64,000 nt of DNA from an uncultured Bacteroidales bacterium (GTDB taxonomy: Bacteria; Bacteroidota; Bacteroidia; Bacteroidales; Muribaculaceae), in the NCBI GenBank assembly GCA_902774055.1, contig CACYGX010000005.1, forward strand, positions 62,001 to 126,000, written 5' to 3'. The notes under the pieces were generated by a model that was not told where the DNA came from, did not search any database, and worked only from the letters and a program-made list of their open reading frames with translations. The translations under genes were made by a program, and so were the position numbers. Position 1 is the first letter of the stretch; every line of letters starts with the position of its first letter. This document shows, piece after piece, positions 42,576 to 51,879 of the stretch.

Positions 42576-43913
42576 ATGTCAACTAGATTTTTACAAATAT
42601 TCACTATTCTGATGGCTATGCTCCTGTTGAGCGCACCAGCATGGAGTGCACCGCGCGACAAGCAAGCCATGTTGCAATCGGCCCGGCAAGCCTTGATGAC
42701 AATGACCTCAGGTGGCCATCGCCTCAATGCCTCCTCGCCGCTGATCGAGACCCGGACAACCAGTGCCTACACCCTGTATCAAACCCGTCAAGGCGACTTC
42801 GCCCTGATTGCGGCCGATGACCGCCTGCCCGCTGTGTTGGCTGTGGGCAATGGCAAAATATCAGGTACAGCGCAGGCGAACCCTGGCTTTGAGTGGTTCT
42901 GTGCCAGCATCGAGCAAGTGTCACGAATTCTTACCAGCAGCGATAAGACCTTCACGACCACCCTGCCCGATCCAGACAAATATCCTGCCAAAGTCGATGC
43001 CCTAATCACATCGCAATGGGGTCAGGACGCCCCCTACAGCTACTGGTGCCCGACTGGCTATGGCGAAATCTGTGACGATTACACGCCCGATGTGGTCCAT
43101 TGCTGTGTGGGATGTGTGGCCACCGCCCTAGCCCAATTAACGCGCTATTACCGCTTTCCCGACCACGCCTCGGGCACGGCCAATTTCCTGATCGGCAACC
43201 AAAATGCCAGCACCAGTTTTGACGCGACCTTTGACTGGGACAACATGCTGGACTCCTACCCCGAAGGCCAGTATACCGAGGCCCAAGGACGCGCTGCGGC
43301 ACTATTGTCCTACGTCTGCGGACTGATTAGCTATATGAACTACGCCACCAACGAGTCAGGGTCAAGCAATGTGGCGGGACTAGCGGGCGCACAGAACTAC
43401 TTCGGCTACAGCAAGGATGCTGAAATCGTCGTGCGCACTGACTACAGCGAGCCAGAGTGGATGGATATGGTCTATAACGAGTTGAGCCATCGTCGCCCGT
43501 TGTACTATCAAGGCGTGTATGTGAACTTCGATCCGACGGTGGGTCTGATGGCAGCCGGCCACTCATTTCTCATTGATGGATACAACGAACAGGGACTGGT
43601 TCACGTCAACTGGGGATGGTATGGCAACTACGACGGCTATTTTGACATCGCCCTGCTTGACGTGCGAGGCCTGCAATTCAACACCTATCAAGACATGGTC
43701 ATCAACTTTATGCCCGACACAGGCGTTGAAGTAGTCACTGGCGATGTCGATGATGACGGCCTTGTTAACATCAACGACCTGGCCCTGCTCATTGACCATC
43801 TGCTGAACAATTCAGTTCAGATTAACACAGCCAATGCCGATGTTGACCCTGATGGCATCATTAACATCTCAGATTTATCGGCACTTATCGACATTCTGCT
43901 CCACCAGTCCTAA
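42576..43913 (+). CDS. C10-family (streptopain-like) cysteine protease with dockerin
   Basis: 445 residues. A signal peptide (about 1-25) and an inhibitory pro-region precede the papain-like C10 domain: the catalytic Cys is in CCVGCVATALAQL (about 179) and the His in AAGHSFLIDGYNEQG (about 329), followed by VHVNWGWYGNYDGYF. Residues about 390-445 form a type I dockerin with two calcium loops, GDVDDDGLVNINDLALLID and ADVDPDGIINISDLSALID. Cohesins are rare in Bacteroidales, so the dockerin may bind a partner at the cell surface or simply be a folding module. Exported; probably degrades host or dietary protein. Confidence 0.92.
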   Translation: MSTRFLQIFTILMAMLLLSAPAWSAPRDKQAMLQSARQALMTMTSGGHRLNASSPLIETRTTSAYTLYQTRQGDFALIAADDRLPAVLAVGNGKISGTAQANPGFEWFCASIEQVSRILTSSDKTFTTTLPDPDKYPAKVDALITSQWGQDAPYSYWCPTGYGEICDDYTPDVVHCCVGCVATALAQLTRYYRFPDHASGTANFLIGNQNASTSFDATFDWDNMLDSYPEGQYTEAQGRAAALLSYVCGLISYMNYATNESGSSNVAGLAGAQNYFGYSKDAEIVVRTDYSEPEWMDMVYNELSHRRPLYYQGVYVNFDPTVGLMAAGHSFLIDGYNEQGLVHVNWGWYGNYDGYFDIALLDVRGLQFNTYQDMVINFMPDTGVEVVTGDVDDDGLVNINDLALLIDHLLNNSVQINTANADVDPDGIINISDLSALIDILLHQS

Positions 43914-47521: not shown

Positions 47522-47694
47522 CCTCCACGACTATCCCTGATAAGGGAACAACAAGAAATACAATAAATACAAGGCCCATCCACGGCCTGTAGCCAGTATT
47601 TAACGACAACTGGGACCACTTGAACAACTTTTATTGGGTTGCTCGAGGGTTCCAGTTGATTTTTATAGGATTTCTATAATAGAATTTCTATAAA
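47522..47694 (+). repeat. Structured intergenic repeat, copy 1
   Basis: Begins CCTCCACGAC two bases after the beta-helix stop. Contains the mini-hairpin TCCCT-GATA-AGGGA, AGGCC-N7-GGCCT, a long hairpin from CAACTGGGA (47607) to TTCCAGTTG (with a nested CTTGAACAAC/GTTGCTCGAG arm), then TATAG-N5-CTATA and ATAGAA-T-TTCTAT. The same order appears at 50329 and 51717. Confidence 0.85.
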
Positions 47695-47750
47695 ACTGAA
47701 GAAATGTGACTATTTCTGTCAATTTAGTTTCTTGACTTGCTGAAAAACAC

Positions 47751-47758
47751 TATCTTTG
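47751..47758 (+). promoter_or_regulatory. -7 element of the methyltransferase operon
   Basis: TATCTTTG; transcription would start near 47764, exactly at the first base-paired position of the structured leader. Confidence 0.6.
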
Positions 47759-47763
47759 CCCAT

Positions 47764-48036
47764 GGAAATGGTACGCCCGCGTGCCCTTTCCAAGACATTG
47801 TGGAAAAATTTAGCGTTGGCTATTATTCAAACGTTCAGAAACTTGCAGGTGAAAGAACAAACCAAAAGAATAGTGGTGACGCTCACTTCGTGTGGGCGTT
47901 TCCTGTCTTTTGGTTTAGGTTTCCTGCAAGTACCTTGAACGTTGGACGGGGATTCGTCCACCTTCTATGTCCCAAGGTACTTGCAGGAACGCTTTGTATA
48001 TTGGCCCAGCGCATTAATTGACATCAAATTAATGCA
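47764..48036 (+). ncRNA. Structured 5' leader RNA of the methyltransferase gene
   Basis: Helices seen by eye: P1 GGAAA-GGTACG/CGTGCC-TTTCC (47764-47791); P2 ACTTGCAGG (47841-47849) with CCTGCAAGT (47923-47931); P3 AAACCAAAAGA (47859-47869) with TCTTTTGGTTT (47906-47916); P4 ACGCTCAC/GTGGGCGT (47879-47899) with a UUCG-like loop; P5, a perfect 17-bp stem 47921-47937 with 47973-47989, enclosing TGGACG/CGTCCA; and P6 GCATTAATT/AATTAATGC (48011-48035), ending three bases before the ATG. P2 and P5 use the same bases 47923-47931, so they exclude each other. ATG at 47762 opens a 58-codon frame that ends at 47938, inside P5. A regulatory leader is inferred; no known class was recognised. Confidence 0.7.
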
Positions 48037-48038
48037 TC

Positions 48039-49151
48039 ATGGCAAACGAGAATTTATCTAAAGCCAAGGAGGCCAAGAATGATGAGTTCTATACTCAATA
48101 CCATGACATTGAGAAAGAAATCTCGGCCTATCTTGAGTATAATCCAGACGTGTTCCGTGGCAAGACGGTGCTATTGCCGTGTGACGATCCCGAGTGGAGC
48201 AACTTCACCAAGTATTTTGCCCAAAACTTTGAGAACTTCGGACTCAAGCGGCTTATTTCTACGAGTTATGCCCCAGAGAGCAAGAAGTACAAATTTGGCT
48301 ACCAGCCATCGCTATTTGAGACCGAATCACCGCATTTCGATGCCGACAAGAGCAAGACTCACGGCAAAATCTTTATCCTAGACCACGACGTGACGGGTGA
48401 CGGGCGCATCAATGTCGAAGACCTGCAATGGCAATACCTAGAGGGCGATGGCGACTTCCGTAGCGAGGAAATCTGCAAATTGCGCGACCAAGCCGACTTT
48501 ATCATCACCAACCCACCCTTCTCCTTGTTCCGTGAATTCCTCGCCTGGATCATCGAAGCGGAAAAGCAATTTCTTGTCATCGGCAATATGAACGCAGTAA
48601 CCTATAAAGAGGTTTTTCCACTAATAAAGGAAAACAAAATCTGGATTGGAGTCACGAATTTTAATACTGGTATGTATTTTATTGTTCCCGATGGTTTTGT
48701 TTATGCCTCAACATATAAGTTTGATAGAGAACAAAATGGCATAAAAGTCAATCGAGTTCCAGGTGTATGCTGGTTTACCAATATCGAACATGGTCGTCGC
48801 CATCAGCCTCTTTCTTTAATGACCATGGCTGATAATCTGAAGTTCAGCCGACACAAGGAAATACGTGGGCGAAATAATTACGAAAACTATATTAACTATG
48901 ATGCTATCGAAGTCCCATTTACTGATGCAATACCAAATGACTATGAAGGGATAATGGGTGTTCCAGTTTCTTTTCTTGATAAGTATTGTCCAGAGCAGTT
49001 TGAGATAATTGGCATTGGATTGCAATTGGCTAATATGGATATTATTAGAGAGAAATTGGGCAAACTCAATGGAGGACCAAGAATGTATGTTGAAAGAGAC
49101 GGAGAACTGATTCGCCTGTATGAGAGAATCTTAATCCGCAAAAAACAGTAA
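48039..49151 (+). CDS. EcoRI-family adenine-specific DNA methyltransferase
   Basis: 370 residues. The N terminus ANENLSKAKEAKNDEFYTQYHDIEKEI and the following PCDDPEWSNFTKYFAQNFENFGLK are typical of the EcoRI-methylase family, and the catalytic motif IV is NPPF in FIITNPPFSLFREFL (about 158-161). It should transfer a methyl group from SAM to N6 of adenine in a short palindrome; the target cannot be read. The first half (to about 48590) has GC near that of the core genome, the second half is clearly AT-rich, so the gene looks mosaic. It has a long structured leader and is followed after four bases by a DUF262-HNH gene, its probable partner. Confidence 0.88.
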   Translation: MANENLSKAKEAKNDEFYTQYHDIEKEISAYLEYNPDVFRGKTVLLPCDDPEWSNFTKYFAQNFENFGLKRLISTSYAPESKKYKFGYQPSLFETESPHFDADKSKTHGKIFILDHDVTGDGRINVEDLQWQYLEGDGDFRSEEICKLRDQADFIITNPPFSLFREFLAWIIEAEKQFLVIGNMNAVTYKEVFPLIKENKIWIGVTNFNTGMYFIVPDGFVYASTYKFDREQNGIKVNRVPGVCWFTNIEHGRRHQPLSLMTMADNLKFSRHKEIRGRNNYENYINYDAIEVPFTDAIPNDYEGIMGVPVSFLDKYCPEQFEIIGIGLQLANMDIIREKLGKLNGGPRMYVERDGELIRLYERILIRKKQ

Positions 49152-49155
49152 AACG

Positions 49156-50316
49156 ATGAAGACTACATTAAAGACTGATATAACGATTCGCGACATCTGC
49201 GAGGGATTTGTTTATAACGAGCTGGAAGGCAAGGGATTGTTTGGCTTGAACGGCAAATTGACTATCCAGCCTGAGTACCAGCGCAATTACATCTATGCCG
49301 ATGGCAAGAAAGACGTTGCGGTTATCGACTCGGTGCTAAAAGGCTATCCACTGGGATTGATTTACTTCAATCAAGTGGGCGACCGATATGAGGTGCTCGA
49401 TGGACAGCAGCGCATCACCAGCCTAGGGCGTTTCTTGACCCACAAACTCGCCATCAAAGACAAGAACGGAATGCAGCAATATATCGATGGTTTGAACGAG
49501 GAAGACCGTAACAAAGTGCTGAATACCAAGTTGCTCATTTACATCTGTGAGGGTACTGAGAGCGAAATTAAAGACTGGTTCCAGACCGTGAACATCCCTG
49601 GAGTGAATCTGAATAATCAAGAAAAACTCAATGCGATATACTCGGGTCCATTTGTGTCGAAGCTAAAGGAGGAATTCAGTAACAGCGAGAATGCCAATAT
49701 CCAAAAGTGGAAATGTTATGTCAAGGGTTCGGCCAATCGGCAGGACTTCCTGGAACGGGCCTTGCAATGGGTGAGCCAGGGCAACGTTGAGTCTTACATG
49801 AGCCTTCATCGCCAGGACACTGACATCATGCCCGTGAGGACCTATTTCAATGCGGTCATCGATTGGGTTTCAGCCGTGTTTAGCGATGTACTGCCCGAAA
49901 TGAGAGGTCTGGAATGGGGACGATTATATGAGGAGTACCACAACAAGCCCTACAATGTGACAGAGGTGTCTAAACGGGTCCACGAACTCTATGCCGATCC
50001 TTACGTCACCAATCACAAGGGCATCTTTGAGTATATCCTGGGCAATGAACAAGATAAAAGCCTGCTGAACATCCGAGTCTTTGACCGTGCGACGATAAAT
50101 CAAGTCTATACCAAGCAGACCCAGGCCGCCAAGGAGAAAGGAGTGAGCAACTGCCCCGACTGCGCCTTGCAGCAGGGAAGCAATAGCACCCGCATCTATA
50201 AACAGAGCGAGATGGAAGCTGATCACGTCACCGCATGGAGTAAGGGCGGAGCCACCGACGCGAGCAATTGCCAAATGCTGTGTCGCCACCACAACCGCTC
50301 CAAGGGCAACAAATAA
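49156..50316 (+). CDS. DUF262-HNH protein, probable restriction partner of the methyltransferase
   Basis: 386 residues. The N-terminal DUF262 (ParB-like/GmrS) domain shows IQPEYQRNYIY and the nucleotide-hydrolysis motif DGQQRITSL (Asp82 on). The C terminus is an HNH nuclease: CPDC, then MEADHVTAWSKGGATDASNCQMLCRHHNRSKGNK (given here only as the segment at 352-386) with the His-Asn-His triad. Related DUF262 proteins are NTP-driven nucleases in phage-defence and modification-dependent restriction systems. It starts four bases after the methyltransferase stop, so the pair forms an operon. Restriction of unmethylated foreign DNA is inferred. Confidence 0.85.
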   Translation: MKTTLKTDITIRDICEGFVYNELEGKGLFGLNGKLTIQPEYQRNYIYADGKKDVAVIDSVLKGYPLGLIYFNQVGDRYEVLDGQQRITSLGRFLTHKLAIKDKNGMQQYIDGLNEEDRNKVLNTKLLIYICEGTESEIKDWFQTVNIPGVNLNNQEKLNAIYSGPFVSKLKEEFSNSENANIQKWKCYVKGSANRQDFLERALQWVSQGNVESYMSLHRQDTDIMPVRTYFNAVIDWVSAVFSDVLPEMRGLEWGRLYEEYHNKPYNVTEVSKRVHELYADPYVTNHKGIFEYILGNEQDKSLLNIRVFDRATINQVYTKQTQAAKEKGVSNCPDCALQQGSNSTRIYKQSEMEADHVTAWSKGGATDASNCQMLCRHHNRSKGNK

Positions 50317-50328
50317 CCCCACTACACC

Positions 50329-50492
50329 CCTCCACGACTGTCCCTGATTAGGGAACAACAAGAAATACAAGGCCCATCCGGCCTGTAGCTGGTATTTAAC
50401 GACAACTGGGACCACTTGAACAACTTTTTAAAGGGTTGCTCGAGGGCCCCAGTTGATTTTTATAGGATTTCTATAATAGAATTTCTATAAAA
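50329..50492 (+). repeat. Structured intergenic repeat, copy 2
   Basis: Starts CCTCCACGAC 12 bases after the HNH gene stop. Same order of hairpins as copy 1: TCCCT-GATT-AGGGA, AGGCC-N5-GGCCT, CAACTGGG ... CCCAGTTG (50404 to 50454) with the nested arm, then TATAG-N5-CTATA and ATAGAA-T-TTCTAT. It lacks the CAATAAATA stretch of copy 1. Confidence 0.85.
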
Positions 50493-50505
50493 ACAAAAAA
50501 ATGAT

Positions 50506-50546: not shown

Positions 50547-51713
50547 ATGAAAAAGATTGTCAATCCGTTTATCGTATCGGGCAAGATAGAGCCTAAATAC
50601 TTCTGCGACCGTGCCAGCGAGAGCGCAAATCTTATTAAGTCGCTCACCAACGGCAATAACCTGGTGTTGATATCTCCCCGCCGCATGGGCAAGACTGGGC
50701 TAATACATTATTGCTACGACAAGGAACCTTTCTGTGACTATTATCACACGATCTTCATCGACATCTTGCATACAACTAGCCTACGCGAGTTTACTTTCCT
50801 GTTTGGCAAGAGCATTTTTGAAGCTATTATGCCACTGGGACAGAAAATGCTCACTTCGTTTGTGCAAACTCTTAAATCACTCAGTGGTAAGTTCAGTATA
50901 GATTTGGTTACCAATATGCCCACGTTCAATCTGGAATTGGGTGACATCACCCGACCGGCATTGACCCTTGAAGAGATTTTTTCCTATTTGGAACATGCCG
51001 ACAAGCCTTGCATTGTCGCTTTTGACGAATTTCAACAGATTGCTCATTATCCTGAAAAAAATATTGAGGCACTTCTCAGGACCCACGTCCAACAAGCCAC
51101 CAATACACATTTCATCTTTGCCGGCAGCGAATATCACATTATGCAGGAGATGTTTATGTCATCGGCAAAACCTTTCTACAATAGCGCCGACACGCTGGAA
51201 CTTAAGGCCATTGACATTCAAGTCTATACACAGTTTGTCATTGAACACATGAAAAGCGGCAATCGCATCATCAGCCCTGATCTTGTTCAAGCTGTTTATC
51301 GGCTCTATCGTGGCAATACCTACGCCATGCAGAAAACCTTTAACGATCTTTATTCCATCACTGATGAGGGTACCGTTGTAACCATTGACATGATTATTAC
51401 GGCGATTAATAACGTCATCGACTCCAAGGAGCCTATGTTTAGAGAGCAACTGTCCAATATCCCTGACAAACACAAACCTCTGCTCTATGCCATCGCCCAG
51501 GAAGGGGAGGCCGAGCGCATGACTTCGGCCAAATTTGTCAAGGACCACAAGTTAGCCTCGGCTAGTGCCGTCCAGTATGCCACGACTCAACTCCTCAATA
51601 AGGGAGTTATCACAAAACTTGCAGGAAAGTACTCCCTGAATGACCCATTCTTTGCGCTATGGATCAATAGATTATACGGTATTAAAACTCTTCAACAACT
51701 ACTAACAGATTAA
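50547..51713 (+). CDS. AAA ATPase of the archaeal-ATPase/NACHT-like type
   Basis: 388 residues. NPFIVSGKIEPKYFCDRASE opens the protein in the manner of archaeal-type ATPases; Walker A is ISPRRMGKTGLIHY (about 47-60), Walker B is CIVAFDEFQQI, and the sensor region is FIFAGSEYHIMQEMF. The C terminus is a winged helix (SAKFVKDHKLASASAVQYATTQLLNKGVI) followed by NDPFFALWINRL. Such ATPases are frequent in accessory regions of gut Bacteroidales and have no settled role; some relatives belong to defence islands. It sits alone between repeat copies 2 and 3. Confidence 0.85.
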   Translation: MKKIVNPFIVSGKIEPKYFCDRASESANLIKSLTNGNNLVLISPRRMGKTGLIHYCYDKEPFCDYYHTIFIDILHTTSLREFTFLFGKSIFEAIMPLGQKMLTSFVQTLKSLSGKFSIDLVTNMPTFNLELGDITRPALTLEEIFSYLEHADKPCIVAFDEFQQIAHYPEKNIEALLRTHVQQATNTHFIFAGSEYHIMQEMFMSSAKPFYNSADTLELKAIDIQVYTQFVIEHMKSGNRIISPDLVQAVYRLYRGNTYAMQKTFNDLYSITDEGTVVTIDMIITAINNVIDSKEPMFREQLSNIPDKHKPLLYAIAQEGEAERMTSAKFVKDHKLASASAVQYATTQLLNKGVITKLAGKYSLNDPFFALWINRLYGIKTLQQLLTD

Positions 51714-51716
51714 AAC

Positions 51717-51879
51717 CCTCCACGACTGTCCCTTGATAAGGGAACAACAAGAAATACAACAAATACAAGGCCCATCCGGCCTGTAGCCAGTATTTAAAGA
51801 CAACTGGGACCACTTGAACAACTTTTTAAAGGGTTGTTCGAGCGTCCCAGTTGATTTTTTATAGGATTTCTATAAAAAC
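51717..51879 (+). repeat. Structured intergenic repeat, copy 3
   Basis: Starts CCTCCACGAC three bases after the ATPase stop. The pairing is the best of the three copies: TCCCTT-GAT-AAGGGA, AGGCC-N5-GGCCT, CAACTGGGA/TCCCAGTTG and CTTGAACAAC/GTTGTTCGAG. It keeps TATAG-N5-CTATA but lacks the second ATAGAA element. Confidence 0.85.

Follow-up and report, generated by a model that had tools for sequence, protein, structure and literature searches.

The cobalamin and SAM-II riboswitches combine a conserved core that contains a pseudoknot with a closing helix of the P1 type and mutually exclusive expression-platform helices, and JUMPstart/ops and EAR are antitermination elements in the leaders of accessory and surface-polysaccharide operons. 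The families from a study with 224 candidate RNAs are reportedly included in Rfam. Control of restriction-modification (RM) systems is known to involve C proteins, dual-function methyltransferases, antisense RNA (EcoRI, Eco29kI) and hairpins at the start site of the restriction endonuclease. Sections of two RM reviews discuss antisense RNA (PMC3874152, PMC12707154) and those of one also start-site hairpins; hairpins that limit access to the start codon are on record for RM in a section of PMC12707154, and the word riboswitch is absent from the main text of both reviews.

Here we analyse the leader of an RM operon in a 64,000-nt stretch of DNA from an uncultured Muribaculaceae bacterium (the window, by which we mean this whole stretch). 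The family to which the leader belongs shares with the riboswitches a large pseudoknotted core, a P1 closing helix, exclusive helices and an occurrence in several copies per genome, but it has no Rfam match and no known ligand, and its genes serve defence and surface functions instead of one metabolic pathway. With JUMPstart/ops and EAR it has in common the place in the leader of accessory and surface-polysaccharide operons, from which it differs in lacking an Rfam family match, in a similar distance to the start codon and in helices that involve the start region. A role in governing RM expression would be shared with the known RM control systems; however, the described cases of these belong to single systems, whilst the leader family serves unrelated RM types. 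Bacteroidales-1 RNA (RF01693) and the other Bacteroidetes RNAs covered in the relevant sections of PMC2864571 resemble it in host group and in being structured, but our Rfam scans give no hit to them. The preliminary description of the region had recognised no known riboswitch class, and this agrees with our scans: no family of Rfam 15 reaches its gathering score for the leader, and the window as a whole matches tRNA only. A permissive scan of the leader returned five sub-threshold matches (best: mir-532, 29.7 bits with 75.2 needed); we rejected these microRNA and snoRNA matches (best E = 8.7e-5), which lie far below the gathering score, as chance matches to long hairpins. An Rfam scan of one relative (L139) yielded nothing up to E = 1. 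A literature search, including sections of PMC2864571, PMC3874152, PMC12707154 and PMC7366714, revealed no published description of the family. The RNA family and its gene set thus appear to be new, whilst the mechanism would by analogy work like that of known leader RNAs.

Promoter, operon and flanking repeats

The leader (47764-48038) is untranslated, begins directly after a -7 promoter element and lies ahead of the gene for a methyltransferase (M), which is separated by 4 nt from the gene for a restriction enzyme (R):

47751..47758, + strand: -7 promoter element TATCTTTG, Bacteroidetes TAnnTTTG type (sequence)
48039..49151, + strand: EcoRI-family DNA adenine methyltransferase, M (PF13651, 439 bits)
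49156..50316, + strand: restriction enzyme with GmrSD_N and HNH domains, R, the next gene of the operon (PF03235, PF01844; PADLOC REase_II, 278 bits)

TAnnTTTG is the Bacteroidetes -7 promoter consensus according to the relevant section of PMC7366714, and of 188 loci in the leader family, 146 carry it no more than 200 nt upstream, against 19.7 expected from mononucleotide shuffles. The PADLOC label for the GmrSD_N/HNH protein is type II restriction enzyme. M and R form a single operon behind a single leader, which speaks against the earlier proposal that the RNA provides tight timing of M versus R: as both genes are served together, the device would adjust the overall level of the system and not the order of its two enzymes.

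Three direct repeats of about 165 bp (47522-47695, 50329-50500 and 51716-51875) border both the M-R cassette and an ATPase gene (50547-51713), and no further copies were found in the genome. Six stretches were taken from other genomes of this genus for comparison: in five of them, an ATPase gene related to this one (76-87% identity) has a copy of the palindromic 36-bp repeat end on either side, which suggests that the ATPase gene and these ends may constitute a mobile unit. In a related locus (L007), the leader is 88% identical to that of the window and R is 86% identical over 139 residues, with M merely 59% identical; M seems, from these identities, to have been exchanged or to diverge faster inside the operon. 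At 42576-43913, the window also encodes a C10 peptidase that carries a Spi inhibitor and a dockerin domain.

Fold of the window leader and its conservation in close relatives

Folding of the 275-nt leader gives a minimum free energy (MFE) of -113.5 kcal/mol compared to -76.1 kcal/mol for shuffled sequences (z = -7.21; equalled by 0 of 200 shuffles). Its elements are as follows:

47764..47791, + strand: P0, 5' hairpin GGAAA...TTTCC, about at the predicted transcript start (MFE)
47813..47822, + strand: P1 5' strand GCGTTGGCTA, within the family motif AGCRTTnGCTATTATT at 47812-47827 (RNAalifold)
47830..47837, + strand: P2 5' strand AACGTTCA (100% paired in 13 leaders; aligns with the family P2)
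47841..47849, + strand: P3 5' strand ACTTGCAGG, upstream partner of the putative switching strand (sequence, conserved pairing)
47859..47869, + strand: 5' strand of a variable 11-bp stem (double changes at 8 of 11 pairs, 13 leaders)
47878..47900, + strand: inner hairpin, equivalent of P6 (MFE, RNAalifold)
47906..47916, + strand: 3' strand of the variable 11-bp stem (RNAalifold alignment of 13 leaders)
47917..47920, + strand: pseudoknot 5' strand AGGT, partner at 47932-47935 across P3 (100% in 13 leaders, invariant)
47921..47937, + strand: 5' strand of the competing perfect 17-bp stem (inverted repeat; pairing in 13 leaders)
47923..47931, + strand: P3 3' strand CCTGCAAGT, the putative switching strand (two perfect partners, both conserved)
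47932..47935, + strand: pseudoknot 3' strand ACCT (pairing in 13 leaders; swap test in the family)
47936..47943, + strand: P2 3' strand TGAACGTT (pairing in 13 leaders; family alignment)
47973..47989, + strand: 3' strand of the competing 17-bp stem, with a second ACTTGCAGG at 47979-47987 (inverted repeat; pairing in 13 leaders)
48002..48012, + strand: P1 3' strand TGGCCCAGCGC (RNAalifold, MFE of growing transcripts)
48011..48035, + strand: pre-start hairpin P8, ending 3 nt before the ATG at 48039 (sequence, MFE, RNAalifold)

The preliminary description had noticed that the nine bases at 47923-47931 can pair either upstream, at 47841, or downstream, at 47979, and had listed a perfect 17-bp stem, an 11-bp stem and a 9-bp hairpin ending three bases before the ATG. 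The sequence confirms each of these: the 17-bp stem (47921-47937/47973-47989) is the sole perfect one among four inverted repeats in 3 kb, the 11-bp stem lies at 47859-47869/47906-47916, the hairpin is P8 with GCATTAATT/AATTAATGC (48011-48019/48027-48035), and both partners of the nine bases are kept in 13 of 13 leaders of the window's subgroup, with no random loss of either one. A further claim, namely that TTTCC has two partners, stands for the hairpin at 47764-47791, which by inspection is retained in homologues with changing sequence, but not for the other partner: the second GGAAA is found at 47802-47806, not at 47801, and homologues possess GTGGAT, GCGGTA and the like instead.

In forced folds of the window leader, the upstream state lies 6.0 kcal/mol above the 17-bp competitor. 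When transcripts of increasing length were folded in steps of 6 nt, the MFE structure contained the upstream helix for ends at 47935-47983 and the competitor took over from 47989. For the full-length leader, the upstream helix has an equilibrium probability of just 0.0002 with the pseudoknot left out; including the pseudoknot, which all these energies omit, would favour the upstream state. The P1 pairs of the window (RNAalifold) join 47815-47818 with 48007-48010 and 47819-47822 with 48002-48005, and the register 47813-47819/48006-48012 is that of the MFE structure when the transcript ends at 48013-48031. As P1 and P8 overlap by 2 nt only, their competition is weak in the window and the foremost candidate for a switch there is the P3 alternative; pairing between the P6 3' strand and a P7 strand further downstream, searched for by eye, was not found in the window.

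A DNA search detected the leader in 13 of 397 genomes of the family that includes the window (the window's own genome being one of the 13), all from one genus, with one of the matches being a 59-nt fragment (L016). This partial match, which has neither an RM gene nor a model hit and is possibly a relic of a leader, was omitted from the alignments; a further locus (L019) was added from a second genome collection, and the alignment comprises 13 complete leaders including the window's. P3 with its upstream partner is paired at all nine positions in all 13 leaders, and so are P2 and the 4-bp pseudoknot, almost without variation. In the 17-bp competitor, 212 of 219 cells are paired (96.8%) and seven are not: its 5' strand is invariant, the 3' strand alone varies, mostly to wobble pairs, and there are no double changes. 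Being invariant in the subgroup, the nine-base alternative exhibits no covariation of its own. Across the 13 leaders, the energy of the upstream state minus that of the competitor ranges from -3.6 to +9.0 kcal/mol, with the upstream state preferred in two. The 17-bp alternative is confined to the window's subgroup, with no such complement present in the other subgroups tested.

Models, covariation and exclusive helices in the wider family

A set of 110 regions upstream of EcoRI-type methyltransferases contains a second cluster of 39, all from other Bacteroidales, whose leaders are similar to that of the window in size and position and of which 26 were aligned. From the core of these leaders we made a covariance model (R1, and hence trained on methyltransferase leaders). 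In an order-wide sample of 393 genomes from 207 genera, R1 matches 23 genomes belonging to 12 genera; it recognises the window leader marginally (14.9 bits, E = 0.04). Model R2, made from 61 sequences with none from the window's subgroup, recognises the window leader over its full length (1-204) and at the right place with 30.9 bits (E = 2.2e-4); this is the sole match better than E = 0.1 in the window's own 3.17-Mb genome, where the next match up to E = 1 scores 15.6 bits. All 13 subgroup members are found at the homologous position with 26.9-34.6 bits. The score is not our sole argument, since antisense matches to two true members (L038, L080; 24.7 and 28.5 bits), which reflect helix self-complementarity, and the 5' motif alone in motif-selected sequences (20-25 bits, up to 25.4) score nearly as high; promoter, motif, helix order, pseudoknot and gene context agree with R2 membership of the window leader.

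The genomes of the relatives belong to Prevotellaceae, Muribaculaceae and other Bacteroidales. In three families, matches turned up in 8 of 14, 15 of 18 and 46 of 159 genomes; a single genome contained as many as seven. A class-wide R2 search with stricter filters (6 of 302 candidates scored) gave 0 matches in 395 genomes, which says little on absence, as the window's own genome was in the sample and was missed as well. Homologues of the window leader were not found on plasmids or phages, nor those of the leaders of two relatives on plasmids. Three pattern scans of viral contigs gave four exact hits to the 5' motif (3, 0 and 1), which by inspection lie in unrelated sequence that lacks the rest of the RNA; their R2 scores of 11.7-25.4 bits correspond to the motif alone. 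Throughout, E-values are rough, related sequences are not independent events and the sampled genomes include metagenome-assembled ones; loci representing the same contig in two collections were removed before alignment A1. Four loci (L040, L052, L071, L093) possess a shorter leader variant with a long, nearly perfect P1 (R2 weak, 20.9-32.1 bits), whose 3' strand can, by inspection, pair with sequence overlapping the start codon.

Common to the family are the 5' strand GCATTnGCTATTAT, P2, P3, a G-rich/C-rich pseudoknot across P3, the hairpin P6 and a post-core strand, P7, with the P1 3' strand close to the start codon; the window leader has the P1, P2, P3 and pseudoknot of the R1/R2 family. Pairing in P2, P3 and the pseudoknot amounts to 97.3% when 26 members are aligned by sequence; double-change cells number 72, versus 22.7 in shuffled alignments, and shifting the partners lowers pairing to 31-47%. 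P2, P3 and P6 were not counted on alignment A6, because it was fitted to the model for these helices. For partner tests, 89 of 91 members were kept (the antisense matches L038 and L080 were dropped), and the own pseudoknot partner proved better than the mean of swapped partners in 85 of 89. The mean energy of P1 with its own partner was matched by 0 of 5000 permutations for 54 divergent members and by 9 of 5000 for 23 non-redundant ones; taken one by one, the own partner was better than the mean of swapped ones in 38 of 54 and 15 of 22 cases, and P1 with a reversed 5' strand still gave -10.1 and -10.2 kcal/mol. Within subgroup 2 there are no double changes in P1 and hence no covariation. By inspection, both P1 strands are replaced in L183, L191, L250 and L254.

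Strands of this core also have alternative partners elsewhere in the family. In subgroups 2 and 3, the P6 3' strand can pair with its local 5' partner or, over about 10-15 bp in most of the members listed, with the downstream P7 strand. In the 54 divergent members, the mean energy observed for either helix was attained by 0 of 3000 permutations, and the same holds for 29 non-redundant ones; in subgroup 2 the local and the P6-P7 helix are reached by 2 and 3 of 3000 (5 of 5000 in a separate run). A strong P6-P7 helix is missing in 6 of the 26 divergent members listed (-7.4 to -8.8 kcal/mol). The P1 3' strand can instead form a hairpin abutting the start codon (P8) in 54 of 74 loci, with a median end 1 nt before the ATG, and P8 was undetected by this motif-based count in the other 20; the count used 74 of 76 members, two without a usable start codon having been dropped. 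In the 54 loci the mean energies are similar, at -12.1 kcal/mol for the P1 duplex and -13.5 kcal/mol for the start-region hairpin. A further candidate, pairing of the P2 3' strand (AACG) with a downstream CGTT in subgroup 2, is not claimed, as own pairs beat swapped ones in just 15 of 22 and 28 of 54 cases. The arrangement typical of riboswitches, a conserved core with exclusive expression-platform helices, is present as judged by covariation in the family: this extends to the core helices and both alternatives of the P6 3' strand in the relatives, although not to the invariant nine-base alternative for which covariation had originally been envisaged.

Downstream genes and possible modes of action

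We examined the RNA's own strand in 153 context loci, of which 64 precede an EcoRI-type methyltransferase, 69 another ORF within 130 nt and 20 remain unassigned. The anticipated association with EcoRI-family methyltransferases is therefore present, albeit in counts biased by the way in which the models were seeded, and especially so in subgroups 1 and 2, whose loci were first gathered through the methyltransferase (best 80 of 511 kept). An order-wide search with the RNA alone gave 33 places, 30 with a locus, of which 17 are EcoRI-type and six other RM. Among the 25 of 33 Pfam families listed for the 69 other ORFs are N6_N4_Mtase (8), N6_Mtase (6), MmeI domains (3), FRG (2) and one each of D12, Tsp45I, ResIII and YhcG nuclease, together with glycosyltransferase 2 (4), GDSL lipase (4), acyltransferase 3 (3), DUF2334 (2) and sulfatase (2). 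The commonest downstream genes are RM genes of unrelated types, followed by surface-glycan and other genes. Among the 64 EcoRI-type loci, 51 have their start codon 61-73 nt from the core. Small proteins were also observed behind the RNA: in 11 genomes of one genus (L254, L255, L257-L261, L264, L265, L267, L271) a divergent RNA precedes a conserved small protein that by eye resembles an HTH regulator (L254, the sole one scanned, gave no Pfam match), and in one family of genomes (L184, L187, L193, L198, L273, L275, L277-L279) the RNA precedes small P-loop-like proteins (MKLIVLYGPENSGKT), sometimes at several loci per genome. In L138, the downstream ORF, counted from an ATG close to the RNA, is broken by an in-frame stop after 56 codons, and a long open frame follows.

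The leader and the genes it precedes can occur apart from each other. A copy 81% identical to the leader stands directly before an N6/N4 methyltransferase followed by a 672-codon helicase-like ORF, which by inspection we read as a putative type III Mod-Res operon, in a genome (95% complete) where an EcoRI-type methyltransferase was not found. Conversely, locus L018 possesses M (81% identical) and R (85% identical) with the leader absent, and among 74 loci with enough flank, 45 combine a subgroup 1 or 2 leader with R whilst 29 have R without a recognised leader. Judged from these arrangements, the leader is apparently a module separable from the M-R genes; a dedicated role in RM timing also fits poorly with the 29 operons that have no recognised leader and with family members ahead of other RM types and surface-glycan genes.

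We consider it reasonably likely, with a probability of roughly 0.6, that the leader is a cis-regulatory RNA which gates the whole operon through its exclusive helices, probably at translation initiation. That it acts in cis is indicated by its place between promoter and start codon and by helices involving the start region. Transcription from the leader's own promoter would make it the 5' portion of the operon's mRNA, and it would fold into a core with closing helix P1, stacked P2 and P3 and the pseudoknot across P3, the strands of which could join competing downstream helices instead: in the window the 17-bp stem would capture the P3 3' strand, and in the relatives the P6 3' strand would move to P7 and the start-abutting hairpin would capture the P1 3' strand. 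The balance between core and competing helices would set ribosome access to the start region and hence expression of the whole operon, M and R together in the window, with a cellular signal or factor tipping this balance. Bacteroidetes mRNAs lack a Shine-Dalgarno sequence and their initiation is tuned by secondary structure, according to the relevant sections of PMC6847099 and PMC3155529, so that a hairpin adjoining the ATG plausibly matters. Conservation, covariation, gene association and calculated energies of similar size form the basis of this reading, and the strand exchanges suggest a two-state device; that switching occurs in the cell, that translation is the read-out and that a signal tips the balance is what we infer from them. 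The proposal of a switch in the preliminary description is accordingly upheld as regards a conserved leader with mutually exclusive helices before an EcoRI-family methyltransferase, with the act of switching itself an extrapolation.

Control at the level of transcription appears unlikely by comparison, be it that the P7 hairpin with its U-rich 3' side is a terminator and P6-P7 the antiterminator, or that the RNA resembles JUMPstart/ops or EAR and keeps the polymerase going through accessory operons. Processive antitermination would suit the combination of RM and surface-glycan genes, which resembles operons served by such elements, and attenuation the covarying P6-P7 helix, a U-rich P7 (six or more U residues among nine nucleotides in 47 of the 54 divergent members) and two terminator-like consensus sites on the + strand of the window leader (47878-47900 and 47943-47960; with both strands counted, 600 bases contain four such sites, compared to 0.5 in shuffles). 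However, terminator scans find none in the leaders of L157, L216 and L088, many of the U residues sit inside the P7 stem, and the narrow start-codon spacing with the adjoining P1/P8 fits translation better. It is less probable again that the RNA is a constitutive 5' structure, serving as stability element or translation enhancer with the alternative helices as folding intermediates: the hairpin at the transcript start would agree with this, as would the fact that the two states come from calculated energies, which in the window favour one of them at equilibrium, yet two covarying partners for one strand are hard to explain unless both are used.

The gene contexts bear upon two further explanations. 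A trans-acting RNA derived from the leader, for example processed and used in defence, would account for the 20 context loci without an assigned near ORF; given that an ORF start lies behind the RNA in the other 133 (on the RNA's own strand), mostly at similar distance, and that there is no fixed protein partner, we regard this as very improbable. Autogenous control, in which the EcoRI-type methyltransferase binds its own leader, draws on the 64 loci that precede such an enzyme, but we set it aside, with slightly less credence still, on account of the leader copy in front of the N6/N4 methyltransferase in a genome where no EcoRI-type enzyme was found, and of the members that stand in front of MmeI, D12, N6/N4, Tsp45I and glycan genes. 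An origin as degenerate coding sequence, mobile DNA palindrome or artefact, to which a 94-codon frame spanning 47737-48021 and the direct repeats bordering the cassette might point, we deem negligible: the 13 homologues display 1-2 nt indels and compensatory changes, which speak against coding, and the upstream repeat stops before the promoter.

It is conceivable, if doubtful, that a signal related to infection or to the envelope is sensed by a single class of RNA, which by helix exchange in the mRNA leader sets RM operons of unrelated types as well as genes for surface-glycan modification; if true, phage exposure and phage defence in Bacteroidales would belong to one RNA-based regulon. RM control is known to involve proteins, promoter methylation and antisense RNA, to which a large class of leader RNA shared by unrelated RM types would add a new layer and make the regulation of defence in Bacteroidales directly testable. 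The family also offers a structured, pseudoknotted RNA of gut and rumen bacteria, with no known ligand and with candidate exclusive helices, one set of which covaries on both sides.
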